Of a stretch of DNA of 64,000 bases, positions 49,851-59,467 are shown piece after piece. Where the stretch lies: assembly GCF_900112315.1 (NCBI RefSeq), contig NZ_FOLL01000015.1:62001-126000 (forward strand). The letters run 5' to 3'. Numbering within the stretch: position 1 is the stretch's first letter; every line of letters begins with the position of its first letter. Source of the DNA: Parapedobacter composti. Lineage in GTDB: Bacteria > Bacteroidota > Bacteroidia > Sphingobacteriales > Sphingobacteriaceae. Under the pieces are notes generated by a model that saw only the letters and a list, made by a program, of their open reading frames with translations, had not been told where the DNA came from and made no database searches. Position numbers and translations under genes: made by a program.

Positions 49851-49891
49851 GGGGGTAACATTTAGGAAATGCCGGTGATTTATCTACAAAA
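49851..49891 (+). promoter_or_regulatory. two-block promoter of the glycine-zipper lipoprotein gene
   Basis: GGGGGTAACATTT, 12 unrelated bases, then TGATTTATCTACAAAA. The same two blocks with identical 12-base spacing precede the OmpA gene (51543-51583). The layout matches an ECF-type -35/-10 pair, with GTAAC as the -35 core. The leader to the ATG at 49954 would be ~65 nt. Confidence 0.65.
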
Positions 49892-49953: not shown

Positions 49954-50781
49954 ATGAAAAATTTACTTAACACCATCGCCATTGCCTTGATCAGTCTCTT
50001 CATTTTCACTTCATGTGATAAAGCTGATGACATACCCATGGAAAAGAAAGAACGTGAAATCTCAAACACGCAAATGCAGAATCCGAAAAACCCATATGAT
50101 AAGGAAGGGGAGCAGCACAATGCATTTCTCGACTACTTTATCGCCAAAGCAGACGGCAGCAAAGAAATGAATCGGGAGAAGATGCTGAAGATTTATGCCG
50201 ACTTCTACGCTTCTCAGAAAATGGAGTTTGGGGACGAGCAAATTGCAGGTTACGGGGAGTTGTTTGATGCCTATAGTGAAATGAACATCGGTGTGCCTTC
50301 CTCTAATTTTCCACCTCAGTTCTGCCGTTGGTTCCCCGTGATATGTGACATCTTGACGCCTTCACCGACTTTTCCGTACCCGCTTCCGCTAGGTTTATTG
50401 AATGAGGATAATGGTGGCACCTCTACCGATCGTACATTAACATTTATTGACGCGGTAAAAGAAAATGAGGCGAAGATACTGGCTGATAAAGAGCTGAGCG
50501 AAGAACAGCAAAAAGCCTTATTAAACCAACATGCCATTGCCCGTTATTCTTCTGGATATTGGCACAATGTTTCTGCTATTCAGCAGGGTAAAAGCGGTTA
50601 CTACGAAGCTTTTCAAGAAGCCCACGCTGCAAAAGTATGTCATACTTGTGACGTCGTAGGAGCTGATGCTGCCGGGGCAGCTGTTGGAGCGCTCGTGGGT
50701 GGTGTTGGTGCAGGTCCCGGAGCCGGCATCGCCAGTGGGGCTGCCTTACTGGAAAAAGCATGGAATTGGTTCTGGAATTAG
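49954..50781 (+). CDS. unknown lipoprotein with C-terminal glycine-zipper helix
   Basis: I do not recognise this 275-residue protein. It has a lipoprotein signal (lipobox FIFTSC near residue 20), a charged helical region (residues 30-120), a short proline/aromatic segment with two cysteines (PPQFCRWFPVICDILTPSPT), another helical region and a CHTC pair near 228. It ends with a glycine/alanine-rich hydrophobic stretch (GADAAGAAVGALVGGVGAGP onward) and WNWFWN. The tail resembles membrane-inserting glycine-zipper or class II bacteriocin-like helices. It has its own promoter shared with the OmpA gene and a strong terminator, so it is monocistronic. A pore-forming or envelope role is inference. 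Confidence 0.75.
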   Translation: MKNLLNTIAIALISLFIFTSCDKADDIPMEKKEREISNTQMQNPKNPYDKEGEQHNAFLDYFIAKADGSKEMNREKMLKIYADFYASQKMEFGDEQIAGYGELFDAYSEMNIGVPSSNFPPQFCRWFPVICDILTPSPTFPYPLPLGLLNEDNGGTSTDRTLTFIDAVKENEAKILADKELSEEQQKALLNQHAIARYSSGYWHNVSAIQQGKSGYYEAFQEAHAAKVCHTCDVVGADAAGAAVGALVGGVGAGPGAGIASGAALLEKAWNWFWN

Positions 50782-51542: not shown

Positions 51543-51583
51543 GGGGGTAACATTTGCGGCTGCGGGTTGATTTACCTCCAAAA
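51543..51583 (+). promoter_or_regulatory. two-block promoter of the OmpA-family gene
   Basis: GGGGGTAACATTT, 12 bases, TGATTTACCTCCAAAA: identical first block, identical spacing and nearly identical second block to 49851-49891. It ends 26 bp before the OmpA ATG, giving a short leader. Confidence 0.65.
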
Positions 51584-51608: not shown

Positions 51609-53411
51609 ATGAAAAAGTTTACACAACGAGTATGGATAGCGGTAGTAACCCTGATGTTATTGACCGCGGCTTTTCCACCAGCACAGGCGCAAGAGCGTCA
51701 TCCCTGGCAGGTCGGTTTATTTGGTGGCACCAGTGCTACACTGGGCAATTATCACGGGGATACGGCCCGGGCTAATCTGGGCTATGTGGGCGGGGTGTTT
51801 GCCGACCATTATTTTGGTGGCGGCAATTTCGGTCTGGGCATCGACGTCCGTATACTACAGCATCCGGTATGGGGGCGCGATAGCCTGATTTTTGAAAACG
51901 GCTACCTGGCGACAACTTATGACAATACGAAGCGCTTTCGCCATTTCGGACTGGCTATAGGGCCTACTTATCAGTTTACGGCGGGTAAGTTCAGTCTGGA
52001 GGCATTCGTGAAAGGCGGATTGCTTTACCAACAGTTCCCCGCTTACCAGCGGCACCTGGTGTATACGGTGGAGAATCCACAGACGGGCACGGGTATGCGA
52101 ACGGATACGTTGCTGGTCCGCGCTTCAGCCAATGCATCTGATAACGCCTGGGCATGGATGGGGGTAGGCGGTCTGCGGTTCAACTATGCGCTGAGTCCAA
52201 ATTGGAGTGTGTTTGCACAGGGCGACTACCTATCAACCTTTGGCCGGCAATTTGGAGGCAAGGACAGTGACTTCTTCATCGAGGAGCGGGAAGAAATGTT
52301 GCCGATTGCGCCAAATACGTTCGTAAATAACGGCTATGACCACTATACCGACCATACGGCCGTGCGGAGTACATATACGCAGGCAGTAAACATGACGGTG
52401 GGTGTGAAATACACATTTGGCAAGCGTAAGGCACGTAAACCGGTGGAGCGTCCGGTTCCTCCGGTGGTGGAGACAGTGCCTGACGTACAGCCTGTGCAAC
52501 AACAGCCTAAGGATGTGCTGGTGGTGGTAAAGGATAAGCAGACCGGACTGGCGCTGAGCGGGGTGAAGGTGGTGATCGATGGCGGCGATGGTGAACAGGT
52601 GTCCATTACCAATGCGCATGGTGAGGCTGAACGGCTGGCAGGAGCAAAAAGCGGAACGTACCGCATCAGTGGCGAGAAGAACGGTATCCGGACCACCGAG
52701 GTGGTGCTGACAGCGGCCGACTTTGCCGGCGGTGGTGCCACGATTTACAAGGAGTTACTGCACGATGACCCCCGTTTTACGTTGATCGGTGAAACGGTAG
52801 AAGGCAACAGTGACCGTAAGCTGGCCGGGATCAACACCACGCTGACCAACGAAGGAACGGATGCGAACATGAGCCAAGTATCCGACGGTGAAGGTAAATT
52901 CATCTACCAGTTGGATCAGCGGGCGGATTACAATGTGGTCGCGAATCAGGCCGGGAAATATTCGCAGACGGAGCGCGTTACCACCAAGGGACTGGATCGC
53001 AGCAAAACGCTGTATGTGACGCTCAAATTGGGTGTGAGTGATCTGGAGGAAGGTGCAAGCTGGGTGCTGAAGAATATCCTGTACGATTTCGACCGGAGCA
53101 ATATCCGACCCGACGCAGCGCGTGTATTGGACAATGTGGCCAACATTATGCAGCAAAATCCGACCCTGCGTATCGAACTATCGTCGCATACGGATAGCCG
53201 GGGCAACGACGCCTACAACCTGAGCCTGTCGCAGCGCCGCGCGGATGCGGCGGTGGCTTACCTTGTGCGCAAAGGTATTGACCGGAGCCGTATGGTTGCC
53301 CGCGGTTATGGTGAAACCCGCCTGCTGAACGACTGTGGGAATGGTGTGGATTGCCCGGAGGAACTGCACCAGGCGAATAGGCGGACGGAGATCGAGGTAT
53401 TGAACTATTGA
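51609..53411 (+). CDS. OmpA-family outer-membrane protein with Ig/CarboxypepD-like middle
   Basis: The start at 51609 gives a signal peptide (VWIAVVTLMLLTAAFPPAQA); the frame extends upstream across the promoter and is rejected there. Residues ~25-280 look like an eight-stranded barrel (HPWQVGLFGGTSATLGNYHG). A proline-rich linker (RPVPPVVETVPDVQPVQQQP) and two CarboxypepD_reg-like modules follow. The OmpA peptidoglycan-binding domain is C-terminal (LYDFDRSNIRPDAARVLDNV, NLSLSQRRADAAVAYL, GYGETRLLNDC). It anchors the outer membrane to peptidoglycan. It is convergent with the CHAT gene and is a plausible partner or target of that cluster. Confidence 0.92.
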   Translation: MKKFTQRVWIAVVTLMLLTAAFPPAQAQERHPWQVGLFGGTSATLGNYHGDTARANLGYVGGVFADHYFGGGNFGLGIDVRILQHPVWGRDSLIFENGYLATTYDNTKRFRHFGLAIGPTYQFTAGKFSLEAFVKGGLLYQQFPAYQRHLVYTVENPQTGTGMRTDTLLVRASANASDNAWAWMGVGGLRFNYALSPNWSVFAQGDYLSTFGRQFGGKDSDFFIEEREEMLPIAPNTFVNNGYDHYTDHTAVRSTYTQAVNMTVGVKYTFGKRKARKPVERPVPPVVETVPDVQPVQQQPKDVLVVVKDKQTGLALSGVKVVIDGGDGEQVSITNAHGEAERLAGAKSGTYRISGEKNGIRTTEVVLTAADFAGGGATIYKELLHDDPRFTLIGETVEGNSDRKLAGINTTLTNEGTDANMSQVSDGEGKFIYQLDQRADYNVVANQAGKYSQTERVTTKGLDRSKTLYVTLKLGVSDLEEGASWVLKNILYDFDRSNIRPDAARVLDNVANIMQQNPTLRIELSSHTDSRGNDAYNLSLSQRRADAAVAYLVRKGIDRSRMVARGYGETRLLNDCGNGVDCPEELHQANRRTEIEVLNY

Positions 53412-53488: not shown

Positions 53489-56101
53489 CTACACCTTGTC
53501 TTTGCTTTTCCGGTGTCGGTACCATCGCCACCCAATTCCAAGCAGGCACAACATCCCGAGGCCCACTAACGGGTAGTACCAGCGCGATCGGCCAGGCAGT
53601 GTAATCCGGGTTTCCACCCCGGTGTAATTGAGGGTTGCCCAGTACCAAGGGTTTCGGCGGGCGGGTGGAGCTTCTTGGAGATAGTGTTGCTTCGCACGGG
53701 CGAGAGCCAGCGAAGGGACTTCATAATCGGCCAACTGTTCGTAAAACAACGCCATGAACTGCGGCATAGTCGCATCATCCACCGGCCAATACGCCGCAAT
53801 GACACCCAATACACCTTTACTGATGAACGCTTTGTTGAGGCTTTCCAAACCTTCGGCCTGAACGGCAACGCCTGCGGCCGTATGGCAGGCAGAGAGGACG
53901 ACCAATGGGGATTGGGAAATGGAGTAACGTAACTTATCCAACGTAAAGGGTTGGTTGAAGGCGAGATAAGGTGATGTGTTGTTTCCTGTTACGGCATGTG
54001 CGGCGATATGCAGCAAAGCCCCGTGTTCGAGCGCATCCAGCAGCGCGGCGTCAGTCAATGCGTTCCCCTCCATGATCCGGCCGTGGAAGCGTTTGGCCAG
54101 CAGCTGCTTTTCGGCCGCTACGGAAGGCAGGTCGGGTAGCTCTCCCCCATAGTCGGATCTGGCAAAACAATGTATATCCGGCTGGAAACTGGTGCCGGTC
54201 GTATGCCGCTGGTTAAGCAACAAGGTATAGGTATAGCTGATGGGATACTGCTCAGCCAGGAACTGACCGTCTGCCATCAGCGCATCAAAAGGCAGCGTAA
54301 ACAGGATACCGTCCAGGGAAATGACGAGTTCGCTATGCGGCTGTTCACCGATAAACGGCAACAGTGTTTCCCGCAGGCTGTGTGCTTCCTGTTGGTAGGC
54401 GTGAGGAGCATTCTCGTAGGCATCGGGCCCCTTATGGAAGTATTCGTTCATGAAGCGCCCGACGCGTTGTACGACCTGTTCCACATGTTCTATGGCATGG
54501 ACATGGTAAGCTCCATCGGCCCGGTATACCGCCAATGCCAAGCCGCTGTCAGGCAGGCAATAGCTGACGAGCATGCTGGAATCCGGGATGTGTTCCACAA
54601 ATCGGCGGAAATCCGCCATAGCCGGCGGGGCGAAATCCCGGTCGAAATGCTCCTCCGCAAGTTGCAGCTGGAATGCCGTTTCAGCAATCTGGCGTTGGTA
54701 TTCGATGCGTTCGGCGGAGTCCGCCGCCGCAGCCAGTTGGCCGTAGAGGTATTGCAGCCGTTGCCGACTTTCCCGGAGGTCATCCCGCTCGGAGGTATCC
54801 CACCGATCTGTGCGGCTCACCTCCTGCAGGAGTTGCCGTCCCTTGGAAAGTTCAATGAGCCAAAGCATCCGTAGCGCAAGCTCTTGCCGCTCCACCGGAT
54901 GCGTTTGCCGGGTATACGCCCTGTAAAGGTAGGTCAGCGCTTCCTGCAGCAATGTTCTGTTCCAAGCCGAGTTCTGGTAGTGGCTCGTTTTGCTGGTAAT
55001 CAGTTGTTGGGTATAGTAGGCGTGCTCCAGGGCCAGGGAGTAGTAGTGGATCACCGAATCCGGTGCAGCATGTACGCGAGCCAGGCCCCACAGCGCATCC
55101 GTAATGGTGTAGTCGGGTGGTAGCCGGTCTTTGGTCGCCCCGAGCAGGTGAAGCACACGGTCGAAATCGGAGCGGGCTTCCGTCGGGTGGAGGTCGTATC
55201 GGTGTAAATTGCCCCGCATATAGTGATACTTGGCTTTTTCACGTGCCTTGCTGGTCGGGAAATATGCATCGATCAGGGCAATGGCGCGGTTGACATCATG
55301 GAACGCTTCCCGAAATTGACGTTGACCGGCGGCCAGCGATGCCCGCTGGTGGAGCGCTTCGGTATACCAGAGCAACGTGTCGCCCTGCAGAGGCCTGTCC
55401 GACAGCAAGGCCAATGCCCGTGTATTAGCCGTGCGGGCACTATCTGATTTACCCATTTCCTGATAGCATCGCGCCAGGGTGTTATAGAGCGGAGTTGTCT
55501 GCCTGTCGGCCGGATCGAGGTAAGCCAAACCGCTTTTACAGGTCTGCAACACACGGTCCGGTTGACCCAGTTGCTGGTAAACAATAGCGAGGTTGCTGTA
55601 GAGTGCTGCCTGTTGGGCTGGCTGACCGGCCGTGAGCCGGATCGCTTCCTGCTGGATGTGCAACGCTTTTTCGAGGTCTCCGACTTGCGTGTAGAGGTTG
55701 CCCAGGGGTTTGGCGATATACAGCACCCGGTCGGGGACTGTCAGTTGTTCGGCCGCACAATACGTCAATGCCGTCTCATAATACCGGATGCTTTCGAGAA
55801 TCCGGCCATGTTCGCGAAGGGCATAGCCGACATTGAGCAGCAGCCAGGCGTATAGTTCTTTGCCCTCCGGAGAAGCGGGTTGGCGGGGCAACAGATTGAT
55901 GAACGAATCCGGATGGTGGATGAAGCGTTCCGGATGGTCGTAAGCGATGGCCCCGAGCGTATCCAGTATATTGAGCAAGGCTTCTTCATCGATGACGGCC
56001 ATTGGTTTTTCTTCGTCGCGGGTAGTCTGCGGTCCGGGCGACTGGCAGGCGGTGAAAGCAACCATAAGGAGGGTCGTATGAAGCAGCCACTTCATCATCA
56101 T
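53489..56101 (-). CDS. TPR-CHAT caspase-like lipoprotein with C-terminal membrane anchor
   Basis: This 870-residue protein has a lipoprotein signal (LHTTLLMVAFTAC), then ~10 TPR-like repeats (residues ~60-400, such as ESIRYYETALTYCAAEQLTV and YSNLAIVYQQLGQPDRVLQT). A helical linker leads to a CHAT domain (~530-835). The caspase-clan dyad is intact: His in LLHIAAHAVTG (near 699) and Cys in VVLSACHTAAG (near 736). A final helix (WYYPLVGLGMLCLLGIGWRW) followed by basic RHRKSKDKV fits a transmembrane anchor with a cytoplasmic tail, which places CHAT in the periplasm. CHAT proteins are proteases in several immune and death systems. Its start overlaps the PKD gene stop (TGATG). Confidence 0.9.
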   Translation of the reverse strand: MMMKWLLHTTLLMVAFTACQSPGPQTTRDEEKPMAVIDEEALLNILDTLGAIAYDHPERFIHHPDSFINLLPRQPASPEGKELYAWLLLNVGYALREHGRILESIRYYETALTYCAAEQLTVPDRVLYIAKPLGNLYTQVGDLEKALHIQQEAIRLTAGQPAQQAALYSNLAIVYQQLGQPDRVLQTCKSGLAYLDPADRQTTPLYNTLARCYQEMGKSDSARTANTRALALLSDRPLQGDTLLWYTEALHQRASLAAGQRQFREAFHDVNRAIALIDAYFPTSKAREKAKYHYMRGNLHRYDLHPTEARSDFDRVLHLLGATKDRLPPDYTITDALWGLARVHAAPDSVIHYYSLALEHAYYTQQLITSKTSHYQNSAWNRTLLQEALTYLYRAYTRQTHPVERQELALRMLWLIELSKGRQLLQEVSRTDRWDTSERDDLRESRQRLQYLYGQLAAAADSAERIEYQRQIAETAFQLQLAEEHFDRDFAPPAMADFRRFVEHIPDSSMLVSYCLPDSGLALAVYRADGAYHVHAIEHVEQVVQRVGRFMNEYFHKGPDAYENAPHAYQQEAHSLRETLLPFIGEQPHSELVISLDGILFTLPFDALMADGQFLAEQYPISYTYTLLLNQRHTTGTSFQPDIHCFARSDYGGELPDLPSVAAEKQLLAKRFHGRIMEGNALTDAALLDALEHGALLHIAAHAVTGNNTSPYLAFNQPFTLDKLRYSISQSPLVVLSACHTAAGVAVQAEGLESLNKAFISKGVLGVIAAYWPVDDATMPQFMALFYEQLADYEVPSLALARAKQHYLQEAPPARRNPWYWATLNYTGVETRITLPGRSRWYYPLVGLGMLCLLGIGWRWYRHRKSKDKV

Positions 56102-58092
56102 CAGAAACGCCAGGCTACGTACAGGTGGGTAGCTTGGCCTTGCCCCGCGCCATACACATAGCGCAGTCCGGATACGGGCCCCAGATAGGTACGTCCCACG
56201 TTGACATCGACGAACGGCTGCACATACAGCCGACCCCTGGCGAGTCGGTCGGTCGTATGGAGCCGCTCCACTTCCACCATTTCGGGATCACTTTGTACGT
56301 GGTAGGTACGGCTTTCCCGATAGGCGGTATTGACGGAGGTTTCCGCTAATGCACCGATCCCTGCGGAAACCAAACTGTTGAAGTTATAACGGATGTGCAG
56401 CGGTACGATACGCAGCTGCAGGAACCGCGAGGAAACCAACCGGTCATAACTGAAATACGGCATCGGTTCGGGTTGGCCGCTCCGTTCCACTGGAATTTCG
56501 ATAGCCCCCTCCTCCGGGATACCACGTGCCGCCGATCCGGCCCGGTACGTGTTGGCGTACAACTCCACCTGCCAGTACAGCTTTCGGTAGGGCGCCAGGG
56601 GTGCCAAACCGATGCCGAACATCATCCCCGGATTGACGGAGGCTTCATCGCTACGCCACGTTTCCGGCCGTTTGAGGAACTGATGGTATCCGGCAAAAAC
56701 GATGGGCGATAGGCTTTTGCGAAACCGGCTTGTTGCCATATTGGTGACGATGGGGTCGTTTTTATCAAAGAAGATATGTGTTTGCCCCTTAAAGGCACGA
56801 TTTGGCAGCCTTTTTTTGGGTTGAACACGGAACCGGATAAAGCCCCGGGTGCTGTCCTTATCGTGTACATCGGGCGCTTTCGATCCCGGCAGTGCAATGT
56901 CCTTGAAGTGGAATACCAGCGTGTCTTCACCCCGGATCTCGTAATGATAGCAACCCACGCTCTGTCCGGTGAGACAGGTGTCACACTGCGGATACAGGTT
57001 GAGCAGCTCCAAGGTTGAGAGGTCGAGCACATCCGGCAACTTGACCTCCAGGCGGATGTTTTTCGCATCGCCTTCCCCATCGTTCTGGAATTGTACTTTA
57101 TAGGTGAGCGCTTTGCGCCTGGCCAATGCCCGGTAACGCATCCGCGACTGCTTTACAGACATTTTGTTGGGGTCGTGCGAGGTCACGACCGGCACGTCCA
57201 GTTGGTGTATCCGAGCCGGGCCTTCTTTCGGGATAAATACTCCGGTGATGGTCACTGTAGCGTTTGTGTCGGTGAGCATTTCGGGCGTGATGTCCAGGTT
57301 GATGAGCGAAAACTGGGCATCGGCACTACCGTCTACCTCGTATCCCGTAACCGTTTTGTAACTGCCATACAGGTCTGCAAAATAGTCGACCGCCTCATTT
57401 CCGGTAAATTCTACTTCTTCAAACACACCATAATCCGGGCTGCCGCTTTGTGTGACCGACACGCTGGGGACACCGGCCCACAGGCCTTTCAAAGTCCGGG
57501 AATCGTCGATTGGAATGACCCGTTCACCGTTGTAGGCCGACTGCCCGGCCAGGACAAAGCCCTCGGGGCCGAAGATTTTTTCATTGGTGAGCAGGAACAC
57601 CGTCCCTTTTTCGCCGGTTTTGACGCCAGCGATGACCACCATATCCTCCCCCGGTAACGCGTTTGCATTTTTAGAGAGCTTGAACGTGCCGTCCGGGCCG
57701 AAGAAATGCTGTTCCGCTCCCGACGCTACCTTTTGGGGGGCCGCTTTGGAAGCGTCTATCTTGATTTTCCGGGTAGGCCGCTTAGGGCGGGGACCATTAT
57801 CGTAGTTGCTTACCGTGTAGAGCGTTACCTCATACTCGCCGGGTTCGGTATATTGGTGTTCCGGTGCTTCGTCCATACTGAAATGGCCGTCACCAAAGTC
57901 CCACAGGTACGTATAAAACGGTGCGCGGCCACCGGGTATGCCAGCCAGTTCAGGCAGTTCGGGCTTGAACAGTACCCGAGTTCCTGCAAAATCGAAGTTG
58001 ATGCGTGCTTCCACCGTATCAGCCCCGGAAGCAAATGCGGATGCGGCAATGGTGAAAAGGAGGCCAACGGAGATGTATAGGCTTTTGCTCAT
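56101..58092 (-). CDS. PKD-domain protein with C-terminal outer-membrane-barrel-like region
   Basis: This 663-residue exported protein has a signal peptide (LYISVGLLFTIAASAFASGA) and a PKD domain (LWDFGDGHFSMDEAPEHQYT, residues ~60-115). The central region contains a DUF11-like beta module (NDGEGDAKNIRLEVKLPDVL). The last ~200 residues are rich in alternating aromatic strands (LYWQVELYANTY, VSAGIGALAETSVNTAYRES) and end in WRF, the terminal aromatic of outer-membrane barrels. It heads a two-gene unit with the CHAT gene, translationally coupled by TGATG. A surface or structural role next to a predicted periplasmic CHAT protease is suggested by context only. Confidence 0.8.
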   Translation of the reverse strand: MSKSLYISVGLLFTIAASAFASGADTVEARINFDFAGTRVLFKPELPELAGIPGGRAPFYTYLWDFGDGHFSMDEAPEHQYTEPGEYEVTLYTVSNYDNGPRPKRPTRKIKIDASKAAPQKVASGAEQHFFGPDGTFKLSKNANALPGEDMVVIAGVKTGEKGTVFLLTNEKIFGPEGFVLAGQSAYNGERVIPIDDSRTLKGLWAGVPSVSVTQSGSPDYGVFEEVEFTGNEAVDYFADLYGSYKTVTGYEVDGSADAQFSLINLDITPEMLTDTNATVTITGVFIPKEGPARIHQLDVPVVTSHDPNKMSVKQSRMRYRALARRKALTYKVQFQNDGEGDAKNIRLEVKLPDVLDLSTLELLNLYPQCDTCLTGQSVGCYHYEIRGEDTLVFHFKDIALPGSKAPDVHDKDSTRGFIRFRVQPKKRLPNRAFKGQTHIFFDKNDPIVTNMATSRFRKSLSPIVFAGYHQFLKRPETWRSDEASVNPGMMFGIGLAPLAPYRKLYWQVELYANTYRAGSAARGIPEEGAIEIPVERSGQPEPMPYFSYDRLVSSRFLQLRIVPLHIRYNFNSLVSAGIGALAETSVNTAYRESRTYHVQSDPEMVEVERLHTTDRLARGRLYVQPFVDVNVGRTYLGPVSGLRYVYGAGQGQATHLYVAWRF

Positions 58093-58130
58093 TACGTCGT
58101 ATTTTTAATCCATCGCATTTTAGTTCTGTG

Positions 58131-58144
58131 CCCTAAAAATAGGG
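58131..58144. promoter_or_regulatory. inverted repeat in the PKD/sigma divergent promoter region
   Basis: CCCTA-AAAA-TAGGG lies at the middle of the 89-bp gap between the PKD-CHAT unit and the sigma-TPR unit. Being equidistant from both starts, it is a natural site for co-regulation. On the plus strand TATCTTTA (58153-58160) resembles a -7 box. Confidence 0.4.
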
Positions 58145-58181
58145 AAATTTTTTATCTTTATGGCTTTAATACGATCATATA

Positions 58182-58745
58182 ATGCATCCCGACCAACGAT
58201 TTATCACCTGCCTACAGCAAAACGACAGCCGCGGCATTGCCGAAATTTACCGGTTATATGCCTCTAAGATCAGCCGCATGATCCGATACAATAGTGGTGA
58301 CGAAGCGGATGCGGCCGACATCATGCAGGAAGCATTGGTAGACATCTACCGGATGAGTGCCGATGGCCGGTTTGTGCTCACTTGTCCGTTCGAGGCTTTT
58401 CTGGTCACCATCTGCAAGCGCAAATGGCTGAATGTGTTGAAAAAAAGGGCATCCAGCCCGGTAACAAAATCGATCGACGATGGATTTAACTTTGATAAGG
58501 ACGATGAAGCCGAAGCTGGCCGGCATGCCGAGCAGCTGGAGCGGGAGCACACGGTGATGCAGTTACTGGCCAATATGGGCGATCGGTGCCGGGAAATCAT
58601 CCAAGCCTGCATGGGCAAGGAGCACCAGGAACAGGTAGCCGAACGACTGGGACTGACCTATGCCTACCTGCGCAAGAAGAAGAGCGAATGTATGGGGAAA
58701 TTGGGACAGTTGGTGAAGAAACACCCCCTATTTAAACGAAATTGA
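58182..58745 (+). CDS. sigma-70/ECF-like RNA polymerase sigma factor of the CHAT cluster
   Basis: This 187-residue sigma factor has region 2 (IAEIYRLYASKISRMIRYNS, then DEADAADIMQEALVDIYRMS) and region 4 (MGKEHQEQVAERLGLTYAYL, RKKKSECMGKL). The recognition helix is less conserved than in FecI-type factors, and the protein differs clearly from the sigma at 42534. It ends three bases before the start of the TPR anti-sigma-like gene. It is divergent from PKD-CHAT and a candidate activator of that unit and of the GGGGGTAAC promoters; the second link is speculative. Confidence 0.88.
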   Translation: MHPDQRFITCLQQNDSRGIAEIYRLYASKISRMIRYNSGDEADAADIMQEALVDIYRMSADGRFVLTCPFEAFLVTICKRKWLNVLKKRASSPVTKSIDDGFNFDKDDEAEAGRHAEQLEREHTVMQLLANMGDRCREIIQACMGKEHQEQVAERLGLTYAYLRKKKSECMGKLGQLVKKHPLFKRN

Positions 58746-58747
58746 TC

Positions 58748-59467
58748 ATGGCAGCATTTTTTGAACAGATTCAGGATTATCTGGACGGTACACTTGCGGT
58801 GGAAGAGCGGCAGGCTTTCGAACAGCAACTGAAGGAAGACGGGGCCCTTCGGGAGGAGCTGGCCCTGCAGCGTGAATTACGGGATCTCATCACGAAGCAC
58901 CGGGCTGCCGAAGCCGGCGTGTCCGCCCTGGAAGCGACCTTGCGGCAGGTACGGGCAGCCTATGAAGCAGAAGGGCCGAAGAAAAAGCCGGGTGTCATCC
59001 GGCTCCTGCTACCGGCCATTGCGGTTGCCGCCTGCTTGTTGGCCGTATTTAACTACGTCGGTTTTTTTGAGCCGGATTTTGAACAACTGCCCGAGATGGC
59101 TACATCGATAACCCGGGATGGCGGAGCGGATTCCACCTATCAGCAGGCAGTTTCTGCGTTCAACGAGGGCGATTACCAAACGAGTATCAGGTTGCTGGAC
59201 GGGTTGGTATCCGATGACACGAGCGTTGTGCGATACCGGTATTATCGCGGTCTCAGTCATCTTGGACTTGCGCAGTATCGCAAGGCGATAACTGACCTAA
59301 AACCGATTGCCGACGGGCCGTCTGTATTTGCGGGCGATGCCAGTTATTTTACTGCCGTGGCATGGTGGCGATTGGGGGATCACGACGAAGCGCTGTCGTA
59401 TGTGGAAAGGGTAACGGAAACAAGTGACTATCACAAAAAAGCGGAACGGTTGAAGAAAAAGCTCTAA
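58748..59467 (+). CDS. anti-sigma-like membrane protein with periplasmic TPRs
   Basis: I chose ATG 58748 (AAFFEQIQDYLDGTLAVEER), two bases after the sigma stop. The first ~75 residues resemble a zinc-less anti-sigma N-terminus (YLDGTL, EERQAFEQQLKED). One transmembrane helix (VIRLLLPAIAVAACLLAVFN, near 82-102) is followed by ~130 residues of TPR-like helices (YQQAVSAFNEGDYQTSIRLL, RYRYYRGLSHLGLAQYRKAI). The layout suggests a sigma-binding cytoplasmic part controlled by a periplasmic TPR sensor, mirroring the TPRs of the CHAT protein. The assignment as anti-sigma is inferred from position and topology. Confidence 0.78.
   Translation: MAAFFEQIQDYLDGTLAVEERQAFEQQLKEDGALREELALQRELRDLITKHRAAEAGVSALEATLRQVRAAYEAEGPKKKPGVIRLLLPAIAVAACLLAVFNYVGFFEPDFEQLPEMATSITRDGGADSTYQQAVSAFNEGDYQTSIRLLDGLVSDDTSVVRYRYYRGLSHLGLAQYRKAITDLKPIADGPSVFAGDASYFTAVAWWRLGDHDEALSYVERVTETSDYHKKAERLKKKL

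Follow-up and report, generated by a model that had tools for sequence, protein, structure and literature searches.

What is a caspase-like protease with export signals doing beside the gene for a sigma factor? The question is raised by a 64,000-nucleotide stretch of the Parapedobacter composti genome (Bacteroidota, Sphingobacteriales; contig NZ_FOLL01000015.1, positions 62,001 to 126,000), called the window below. Here, a gene pair encoding a tetratricopeptide repeat (TPR) CHAT protease and a PKD-domain protein with a barrel-like C-terminus diverges from a second pair encoding an extracytoplasmic function (ECF) sigma factor and a membrane-anchored TPR protein. A first-pass annotation had read the locus as a periplasmic TPR sensor that frees the sigma factor to express the protease and the PKD protein as an envelope-stress, defence or self-lysis module. 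Our analysis places the protease on the other side of the sigma factor: the locus quite probably encodes an envelope-sensing, protease-switched ECF sigma circuit. The evidence that carries this proposal is a covariation between one CHAT residue and one residue in the periplasmic linker of the TPR protein.

An exported TPR-CHAT protease and its anti-sigma neighbor

The protease is a clear CHAT family member (PF12770, E 7.5e-42; 144 bits against a cut-off of 24) with several TPRs. Its predicted structure (predicted local distance difference test score, pLDDT, 84) finds Csx29 as the best solved fold (Foldseek E 4.2e-16; VIA Z 30.5 over 421 residues, 3.9 Å), and separases also match (Z about 25 over some 310 residues, 3.6 Å). 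The His/Cys dyad described in the first-pass annotation is indeed intact: the window protein keeps both His702 and Cys739, and the dyad is present in 118 of 121 CHAT sequences paired with the TPR protein (see below), the remaining three being gapped or truncated there.

Export signals were scored by hydropathy, with thresholds of 1.9 for the N-terminal stretch and 1.6 for the best 19 residues of the C-terminal helix. Among the 118 paired CHATs longer than 700 residues, 111 pass at the N-terminus and 105 at the C-terminus, all 105 with a net positive tail, so that homologues mostly retain their export signals as well as the dyad. The C-terminal helix with its basic tail, first noticed in the window, is thus family-wide, but the window's own helix, short and rich in Trp and Tyr, scores only 1.06; its N-terminal stretch (1.72) is also below threshold. 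The lipobox claimed for the window protein held up in part. A cysteine-bearing AFTAC is present, but it is a relaxed version that fails the strict pattern, and a Cys at or beside this place occurs only in the window and the five relatives closest to it (L017-L021; L numbers denote fetched loci and G numbers genomes of the comparison set), being absent from the other nine rows of the alignment. We therefore dropped it as a defining feature. In a 40-locus sample of Bacteroidota CHATs, about one per genus and chosen irrespective of neighbors, 35 start with a hydrophobic stretch, which suggests that export is common in the phylum and argues against the earlier assumption of a usually cytoplasmic location. 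Linkage to a sigma/anti-sigma pair in this sample tracks the C-terminal membrane helix (10 of 16 with the helix versus 1 of 24 without; Fisher 8.5e-5). Based on the family-wide N-terminal signal and the C-terminal membrane helix with its basic tail, the TPR-CHAT protein is predicted to reside in the periplasm, near the linker of the anti-sigma factor described next.

The third gene of the locus encodes an ECF sigma factor (Sigma70_r2, E 1.5e-6; NCBIfam sigma70-ECF, E 4.2e-15). Residues 11-124 of the fourth protein match an NCBIfam anti-sigma model with 33 of 100 bits, under the curated cut-off, and profile searches place TPRs at its C-terminus. The predicted structure (pLDDT 85) begins with N-terminal helices and a single transmembrane helix (86-106), which a coil linker (107-130; block-wise pLDDT 55-78) connects to a TPR domain predicted with good confidence. 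Because of this architecture, the match at its N-terminus and its position 3' of the sigma gene, the protein is predicted to be an anti-sigma factor, and the pairing of a membrane TPR protein with the sigma factor noted previously is supported, their genes being coupled. Residues are numbered here from TTG 58742; a start at ATG 58748 would give numbers 2 lower. Arg125 in the periplasmic linker is the sole invariant residue in an alignment of 15 anti-sigmas that are 19-34% identical to that of the window. A linker Arg is found in 51 of 63 full-length members, and the CHAT-linked exceptions carry Met or Leu before Gly or Ser. Extra TPR anti-sigma-like genes that adjoin CHAT but have neither their own sigma gene nor the linker Arg were observed at L005:4118-4867 and L011:11297-12061; they are possibly decoys or CHAT regulators.

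CHAT residue 664 covaries with the linker residue

Each CHAT was paired with its anti-sigma, giving 57 discovery pairs for which no sigma filter was applied; six anti-sigma rows that lacked CHAT or a sigma of their own had been excluded beforehand (L005 row 4118, L011 row 11297, L141, L142, L143 and L145). CHAT residue 664 was Glu in 49 of 49 pairs with a linker Arg and Ser, Ala or Leu in 7 of 7 pairs with Met or Leu at the same linker position, hereafter P1, with one of the 57 unreadable (L100). The rule was then fixed and tested on 64 further non-identical pairs that were freshly aligned, 28 from the barrel scan, which are close to the discovery set, and 36 from a class-wide anti-sigma search. 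Test rows had to have a neighboring sigma gene and a CHAT no more than 6 kb away, which cost L152 (9 kb) and L175 (10 kb); L235 was retained manually though the sigma profile missed its neighbor, and six exact duplicates of discovery rows were removed. Agreement was found in 57 of the 61 readable test pairs (Glu/Arg 48, non-Glu/Met-Leu 9, Glu/Met-Leu 3, non-Glu/Arg 1; 3 unreadable). The corresponding Fisher value of 2.8e-8 counts as non-Arg one pair, L286, that is unreadable in the automatic column (Met by eye) and stands outside the 57/61. Combining both sets, the rule holds for 113 of the 117 pairs that could be read (Fisher 8e-16), with Glu at 664 opposite Arg linkers and Ser, Ala, Thr, Leu or Asp opposite Met/Leu linkers.

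Column 664 ranks first of 780 CHAT columns against P1 type, followed by 776 (1.8e-11) and 737 (6e-8), and P1 ranks first of 222 anti-sigma columns against residue 664, with the next at 3.4e-7. As a control, all 34 CHATs without a linked sigma/anti-sigma have Glu at 664, suggesting that Glu is the default state. Among the 35 CHAT sets read, non-Glu residues appear only in anti-sigma-linked proteins, 16 of 17 of which face a Met/Leu linker; at L152, the anti-sigma has Met and the neighboring CHAT fragment Ser. Across 119 linkers, P1 is Arg (99), Met (15) or Leu (5) without any other residue, and the following P1' position is Gly (84), Ser (23), Ala (5), Asp (4) or Asn (3), meaning Gly or Ser in 107.

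CHAT proteins are clan CD proteases. In the accessible parts of two sources on such enzymes (PMC4357240, PMC4626109), the P1-binding residue lies at or near the start of helix alpha1 in caspase 3 (Arg64) and gingipain R (Asp163) and within alpha1 in MALT1 (Asp365), and a separase model places a Glu in the alpha1 region and Asp1082 near the N-terminus of helix alpha4, with Met1038 lining the base of the pocket. In the CHAT model, helix 659-671 contains Glu664 and helix 778-793 begins shortly after Asp776; residue 737 is two positions ahead of the catalytic Cys. Separase Met1038 presumably also precedes its catalytic Cys by two residues. Since these model positions parallel the clan CD pocket residues, the three top covarying columns appear to lie at the expected S1 pocket, and loss of the acid along with the change from Arg to Met or Leu is what a re-tuned pocket predicts. 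An attempt to read the residue of Csx29 at 664 was abandoned because the profile match to solved CHATs begins after this position. Judging from the covariation, the model and the kindred proteases, residue 664 most likely contacts P1, such that the linker docks in the CHAT active site.

The linker as a probable protease substrate

Several observations weigh against reading the linker as a CHAT cleavage site. Covariation speaks for docking and not for the direction of control. Four pairs break the rule: L177 and L178 (Glu, Met), L260 (Glu, Leu) and L266 (Arg at 664, Arg linker). The clearest of them are L177:14988-15743 and L178:14979-15737, from Saprospiraceae and Bacteroidia metagenome-assembled genomes, where Glu664 occurs with the Met linker TEM-SS. 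The window's own P1' residue is Asp, a minority choice. Two CHAT-less orphans, L141 and L142, keep the Arg, though not following Gly, and anti-sigmas without CHAT in the fetched locus often retain the Arg/Met-small motif; 18 of 20 such genomes tested hold CHATs elsewhere, leaving G393 and G503 without CHAT at E 1e-20. Phylogeny adds two further points. A single clade of non-Glu CHATs, although rejected on the full length (approximately unbiased [AU] test, p 0.013, 53 rows), is not rejected on the catalytic domain with a mixture model (AU p 0.45, 61 rows), and an independent-pairs sign test, set aside for having too few pairs, found only 1-2 of them on well-supported branches and was not significant. 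With the non-Glu rows mainly in two clades, Glu664 and Arg125 could in principle mark two old CHAT/anti-sigma subfamilies that were inherited together without any contact. We find this scarcely credible, as columns of the same history rank far lower, the next CHAT columns, 776 and 737, also lie beside the active site, and the observed association was never reached by traits simulated on the CHAT tree of all 121 rows (0 of 24,000; three rates, two frequencies). Parsimony counts five changes of Glu and six of Arg. We take the association to exceed what shared descent would give.

Docking would be equally expected if the linker were an inhibitor, its Arg plugging the active site so that an envelope effector protease stays inactive as long as the complex is intact. 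The same covariation would result, and in pro-gingipain the prodomain Arg fills the S1 pocket according to the available part of PMC4357240; the loss of the linker Arg in 4 of the 6 anti-sigmas without CHAT or their own sigma fits inhibitor and substrate alike. We nevertheless regard inhibition as unlikely given that P1' is nearly always Gly or Ser, as expected of a cut site, and that Csx29, the TPR-CHAT precedent, cleaves its anti-sigma. The module originally envisaged, in which CHAT and PKD are the sigma-induced output, for envelope stress, defence or self-lysis, and CHAT has other substrates, looks distinctly improbable. In its favor, CHAT proteases are known in defence systems (PMC10907252, accessible text), and in many genera a sigma site precedes a lipoprotein-PKD-CHAT operon, so CHAT is probably also induced there in a positive feedback. 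No such site precedes PKD-CHAT in this genome, however, and the covariation ties the CHAT pocket to the anti-sigma, placing CHAT upstream. Defence or self-lysis was set aside as well, as the PADLOC profiles gave only two matches to window proteins at E <=0.1, both weak (BovA to CHAT, E 1e-3, covering only 63 residues around the catalytic Cys and not the full-length Borvo profile; Csx1 to the TPR part of the anti-sigma, E 4e-5), and the distal genes with sigma sites mostly look like envelope proteins (see below). A substrate role is favored instead: P1' residues are small, the linker is modelled as a coil, and Csx29 provides a precedent. Given the 664/P1 covariation and the binding of the residue before the cut at this place in kindred proteases, CHAT most likely cleaves the anti-sigma and acts upstream of the sigma factor rather than being its product.

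In the circuit that we propose, the anti-sigma would hold the sigma factor at the inner membrane at rest. An envelope signal, perhaps relayed by the PKD-barrel protein, would activate CHAT, whose S1 pocket (Glu664, Asp776 and residue 737) would accept linker Arg125 and cut after it. Further proteolysis by site-2 and cytoplasmic proteases would then free the sigma factor, which would use GGTAACA-N16-GATATA/GATTTA promoters to transcribe genes for outer-membrane proteins and lipoproteins, in the window ompA and the lipoprotein gene that starts at 49954. The loss of Glu664 in Met/Leu-linker systems suggests re-tuned, possibly insulated, protease-substrate pairs. On balance we lean towards a broader view, in which exported, inner-membrane-anchored CHATs of the caspase/separase type are the site-1 proteases of a Bacteroidota-wide class of ECF sigma factors, with several copies running in parallel in many genomes and a 664/P1 specificity code that has been re-tuned more than once.

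Conservation of the CHAT/anti-sigma pair

The DUF7849 barrel encoded beside CHAT was detected in 22 of 151 genomes of the order. A CHAT gene adjoins the barrel gene in 21 of the 22 (24 kb apart in G037), as do sigma and anti-sigma genes (on another contig in G079), and 14 further barrel loci from a phylum sample have CHAT in 14 and sigma/anti-sigma in 12. The recurrence of the four families that the first-pass annotation asked for was found across 71 distinct barrel loci, named ones included: CHAT is present in 65, sigma in 64, anti-sigma in 64, and all three in 59, several loci without the full set sitting on contigs <11 kb. Among the named holders are Sphingobacterium, Pedobacter, Niabella, Flavobacterium, Aquimarina, Tenacibaculum and Saprospiraceae. 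The set is not rare, and there is no general loss of export signals or dyad, either of which would have spoken against the first-pass reading.

The barrel turned out to be optional, whereas CHAT and anti-sigma go together. The 151 genomes include 40 with a CHAT match and 32 with a strong one (E below 1e-20). When the best 18 candidates per genome were scored, all 32 held a full-type anti-sigma of this family, no genome had a strong CHAT alone, 4 had the anti-sigma but no strong CHAT (G016, G023 and G128, with G057 holding a fragment), and 115 had neither. The window genome contains 60 sigma-70 region 2 matches but only 1 full-length member among its 5 anti-sigma-family matches, indicating that the pairing is specific. 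Similarly, all 13 barrel-less CHAT loci of the order counted here stand beside an anti-sigma (L023, L025-L035, and L036 at 5 kb); L024 and L037-L040, in contrast, are without a strong one. In G085 (L147), CHAT and anti-sigma have decayed together and lie side by side as remnants, and G057 (L148) retains an anti-sigma remnant only. At the other extreme, G439, G751, G702 and G511 carry 10-28 strong CHAT genes each, three of them with at least 6 anti-sigmas of this type, representing a large expansion of parallel circuits.

The PKD-barrel protein

The partner gene of CHAT encodes a protein with PKD and DUF7619 domains followed by a C-terminal DUF7849 (E 1.2e-37). Chains ending in WKF or WRF are typical of outer-membrane barrels, and 59 of 69 full-length homologues end in this way. 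Because the barrel comes last in the chain, the PKD and DUF7619 domains would face the periplasm, within reach of CHAT. It is thus more likely that the PKD domain hangs in the periplasm than that it sits at the cell surface as initially annotated. We propose that this protein is the sensor or a brake, which is the weakest link of the proposal.

Promoter-like sites and the probable output of the circuit

In other genera, a gene for a lipoprotein of ~330 residues precedes PKD-CHAT, and the motif GGTAACA-N16-[GT]ATATA or a close variant lies 5' of it in 26 of 30 loci by our own count (L001-L016, L057-L070). The motif was derived from 13 of the loci in which it was then counted, making the order-wide count the independent part: the strict motif occurs 53 times in the 22 barrel genomes (8 for a reversed-pattern control) and 47 times in the 129 others. 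Four matches to the KATWTA form were found in the window genome, 3 of them in the window, where 0.01 would be expected; this narrow pattern was chosen after the window matches had been seen, and a previously fixed broader pattern gives the same 3 matches with 0.10 expected. One is 100 bp 5' of the lipoprotein gene at 49954, another starts 63 bp 5' of the ompA ATG (51609), and the third lies inside the sigma gene. The site before the ompA orthologue is also present in L018, L020 and L021 but not in L017. The suggestion that the neighboring OmpA gene is a partner therefore gains ground, and OmpA is probably a member of the regulon. The third match, at 58460-58488, has counterparts at comparable positions within the sigma reading frames of L057-L066 and L069; such a site would be either a coincidence of the coding sequence or an internal promoter driving the anti-sigma gene.

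A sigma site before PKD-CHAT in the 89-bp gap between the divergent pairs was sought and rejected: neither pattern matches there in this genome, and an alignment of six intergenic regions revealed no shared motif. Of 20 distal sites in relatives, 14 are followed by a gene with an exported-looking product (9 lipoprotein-like, all labels being assigned by eye from the first residues), 1 by a doubtful short open reading frame (ORF) and 5 by no called ORF. With most distal-site genes apparently coding for exported products, the output of the circuit looks like outer-membrane maintenance.

Layout and neighboring genes

Feature coordinates are collected in Table 1. The CHAT and PKD genes share one base (TGATG), the gap from the sigma gene to the anti-sigma gene is 2 bp if counted from ATG 58748 (the in-frame TTG at 58742 is a possible start), and the divergent pairs are separated by 89 bp (58093-58181); all coordinates and spacings given in the first-pass annotation were reproduced. 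The neighborhood of the window CHAT comprises ompA, PKD, sigma, anti-sigma, murF and amidase genes.

Table 1. Features of the CHAT/sigma locus (window coordinates)
Feature	Position	Strand	Basis
Exported TPR-CHAT protease (predicted), 870 aa, C-terminal hydrophobic helix and basic tail	53489..56101	-	profile, model, fold match
PKD-DUF7619-DUF7849 protein, C-terminus outer-membrane-barrel-like; proposed envelope partner or sensor	56101..58092	-	profiles
ECF-type sigma factor	58182..58745	+	profiles
Predicted anti-sigma factor: N-terminal helical domain, transmembrane helix 86-106, linker 107-130, TPR 131-240	58742..59467	+	profiles, alignment, model
OmpA-family outer membrane protein, proposed regulon member	51609..53411 (ATG 51609; ORF list starts at GTG 51483)	+	profiles, site
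Predicted lipoprotein, 275 aa, without Pfam match, proposed regulon member	49954..50781	+	profile search
CHAT Glu664 codon, proposed S1-pocket residue	54110..54112	-	covariation; start of model helix 659-671
Catalytic His702 codon (CHAT)	53996..53998	-	alignment
Catalytic Cys739 codon (CHAT)	53885..53887	-	alignment
CHAT Asp776 codon, second-ranked column covarying with anti-sigma P1	53774..53776	-	covariation ranking
Anti-sigma Arg125 codon, proposed P1 (cut between Arg125 and Asp126)	59114..59116	+	alignment, covariation
Sigma-promoter-like site GGTAACA-N16-GATTTA, 5' of ompA	51546..51574	+	pattern match
Sigma-promoter-like site 5' of lipoprotein gene	49854..49882	+	pattern match
Third sigma-site match, within sigma reading frame, may be coding coincidence	58460..58488	+	pattern match

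Additional genes accompany the core set in relatives. The conserved ~330-residue lipoprotein gene lies between PKD and sigma in many genera (e.g. L003:10087-11103, L059:7035-8006, L068:6772-7851) and 3' of CHAT in L069, and is not at this place in the window's clade; five of these lipoproteins gave no Pfam match above cut-off. A scan of loci with the window lipoprotein yielded no homologue. A single neighbor-gene partner with the same role in every locus was therefore discarded as an idea. All ten Flavobacterium-type loci L058-L067 have a gene for a small retropepsin-like aspartyl protease directly 3' of CHAT (L059:12780-13217 matches PF13650 with E 2.7e-12; the other nine were judged by their similar protein ends), which could be a second protease of the cascade.

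Comparison with known systems

The system is real and widely conserved; its parts are known and its wiring is undescribed as far as the literature was searched. That search, which covered few subscription journals and preprints and so does not show absence in print, turned up no account of a CHAT protease with an anti-sigma as its target other than in type III-E CRISPR. The proposed new element is an exported CHAT protease that would cut an ECF anti-sigma with a specificity code readable from sequence. If this is so, transcription in a major bacterial phylum is driven by a caspase-fold protease that sits outside the cytoplasm, many annotated "CHAT proteins" gain a concrete substrate, cut site and output together with a predicted specificity code (residue 664 versus P1), and there is a starting point for studying outer-membrane damage sensing in these bacteria.

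A regulated extracytoplasmic cut in a membrane anti-sigma, the first step proposed here, is also that of the site-1 cascades of the DegS/RseA and RsiW types. To our knowledge, the site-1 enzymes of those cascades are not CHAT proteases. In the Das/Dma systems of Bacteroides, an ECF sigma factor is under an anti-sigma tied to an outer-membrane barrel and has an envelope-stress output; anti-sigma and barrel form one chain, and the accessible parts of the reports describe no protease partner (PMC13088901, PMC9308784), whereas the window's barrel gene is separate. Since the Das/Dma chain runs from anti-sigma domain to barrel, coupling of the two exists in the phylum. At the level of the pocket, separase, gingipain R and MALT1 resemble CHAT as clan CD proteases with Arg at P1 and an acidic S1 residue near helix alpha1 in the available text of PMC4357240 and PMC4626109, but they are eukaryotic or secreted enzymes with other substrates.

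The closest parallels combine a CHAT domain with an ECF sigma factor. In Myxococcus xanthus, DdvS acts when DdvA is inactivated (PMC4374960, accessible part). DdvA matches the window CHAT in sequence (E 3.3e-8) and fold (Z 21.7) and, from the partial record available (PDB 8rot, 8rw5), is a transmembrane anti-sigma of an ECF sigma that itself bears a CHAT domain; anti-sigma, membrane segment and CHAT share one chain there, while in the window they are divided between two genes on opposite strands. Csx29, the top fold match, is likewise a TPR-CHAT protease whose substrate, Csx30, is an inhibitor of an ECF sigma, CASP-sigma; in the accessible text, alanine scanning of the Csx30 site found no essential residue and deletion of M427 blocked cleavage (PMC10028731). 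In contrast to the window CHAT with its predicted export signal, Csx29 is cytoplasmic and RNA-activated via Cas7-11, and Csx30 is not a transmembrane TPR protein. No CRISPR genes, and hence no Cas7-11 or CRISPR partner, were seen among the fetched neighbors, where no dedicated search was made. The window CHAT would thus work like Csx29/Craspase without being a member of that system, and if our proposal is right, Csx29-Csx30-sigma and DdvA join a wider pattern of partnership between CHAT proteases and ECF anti-sigma factors.

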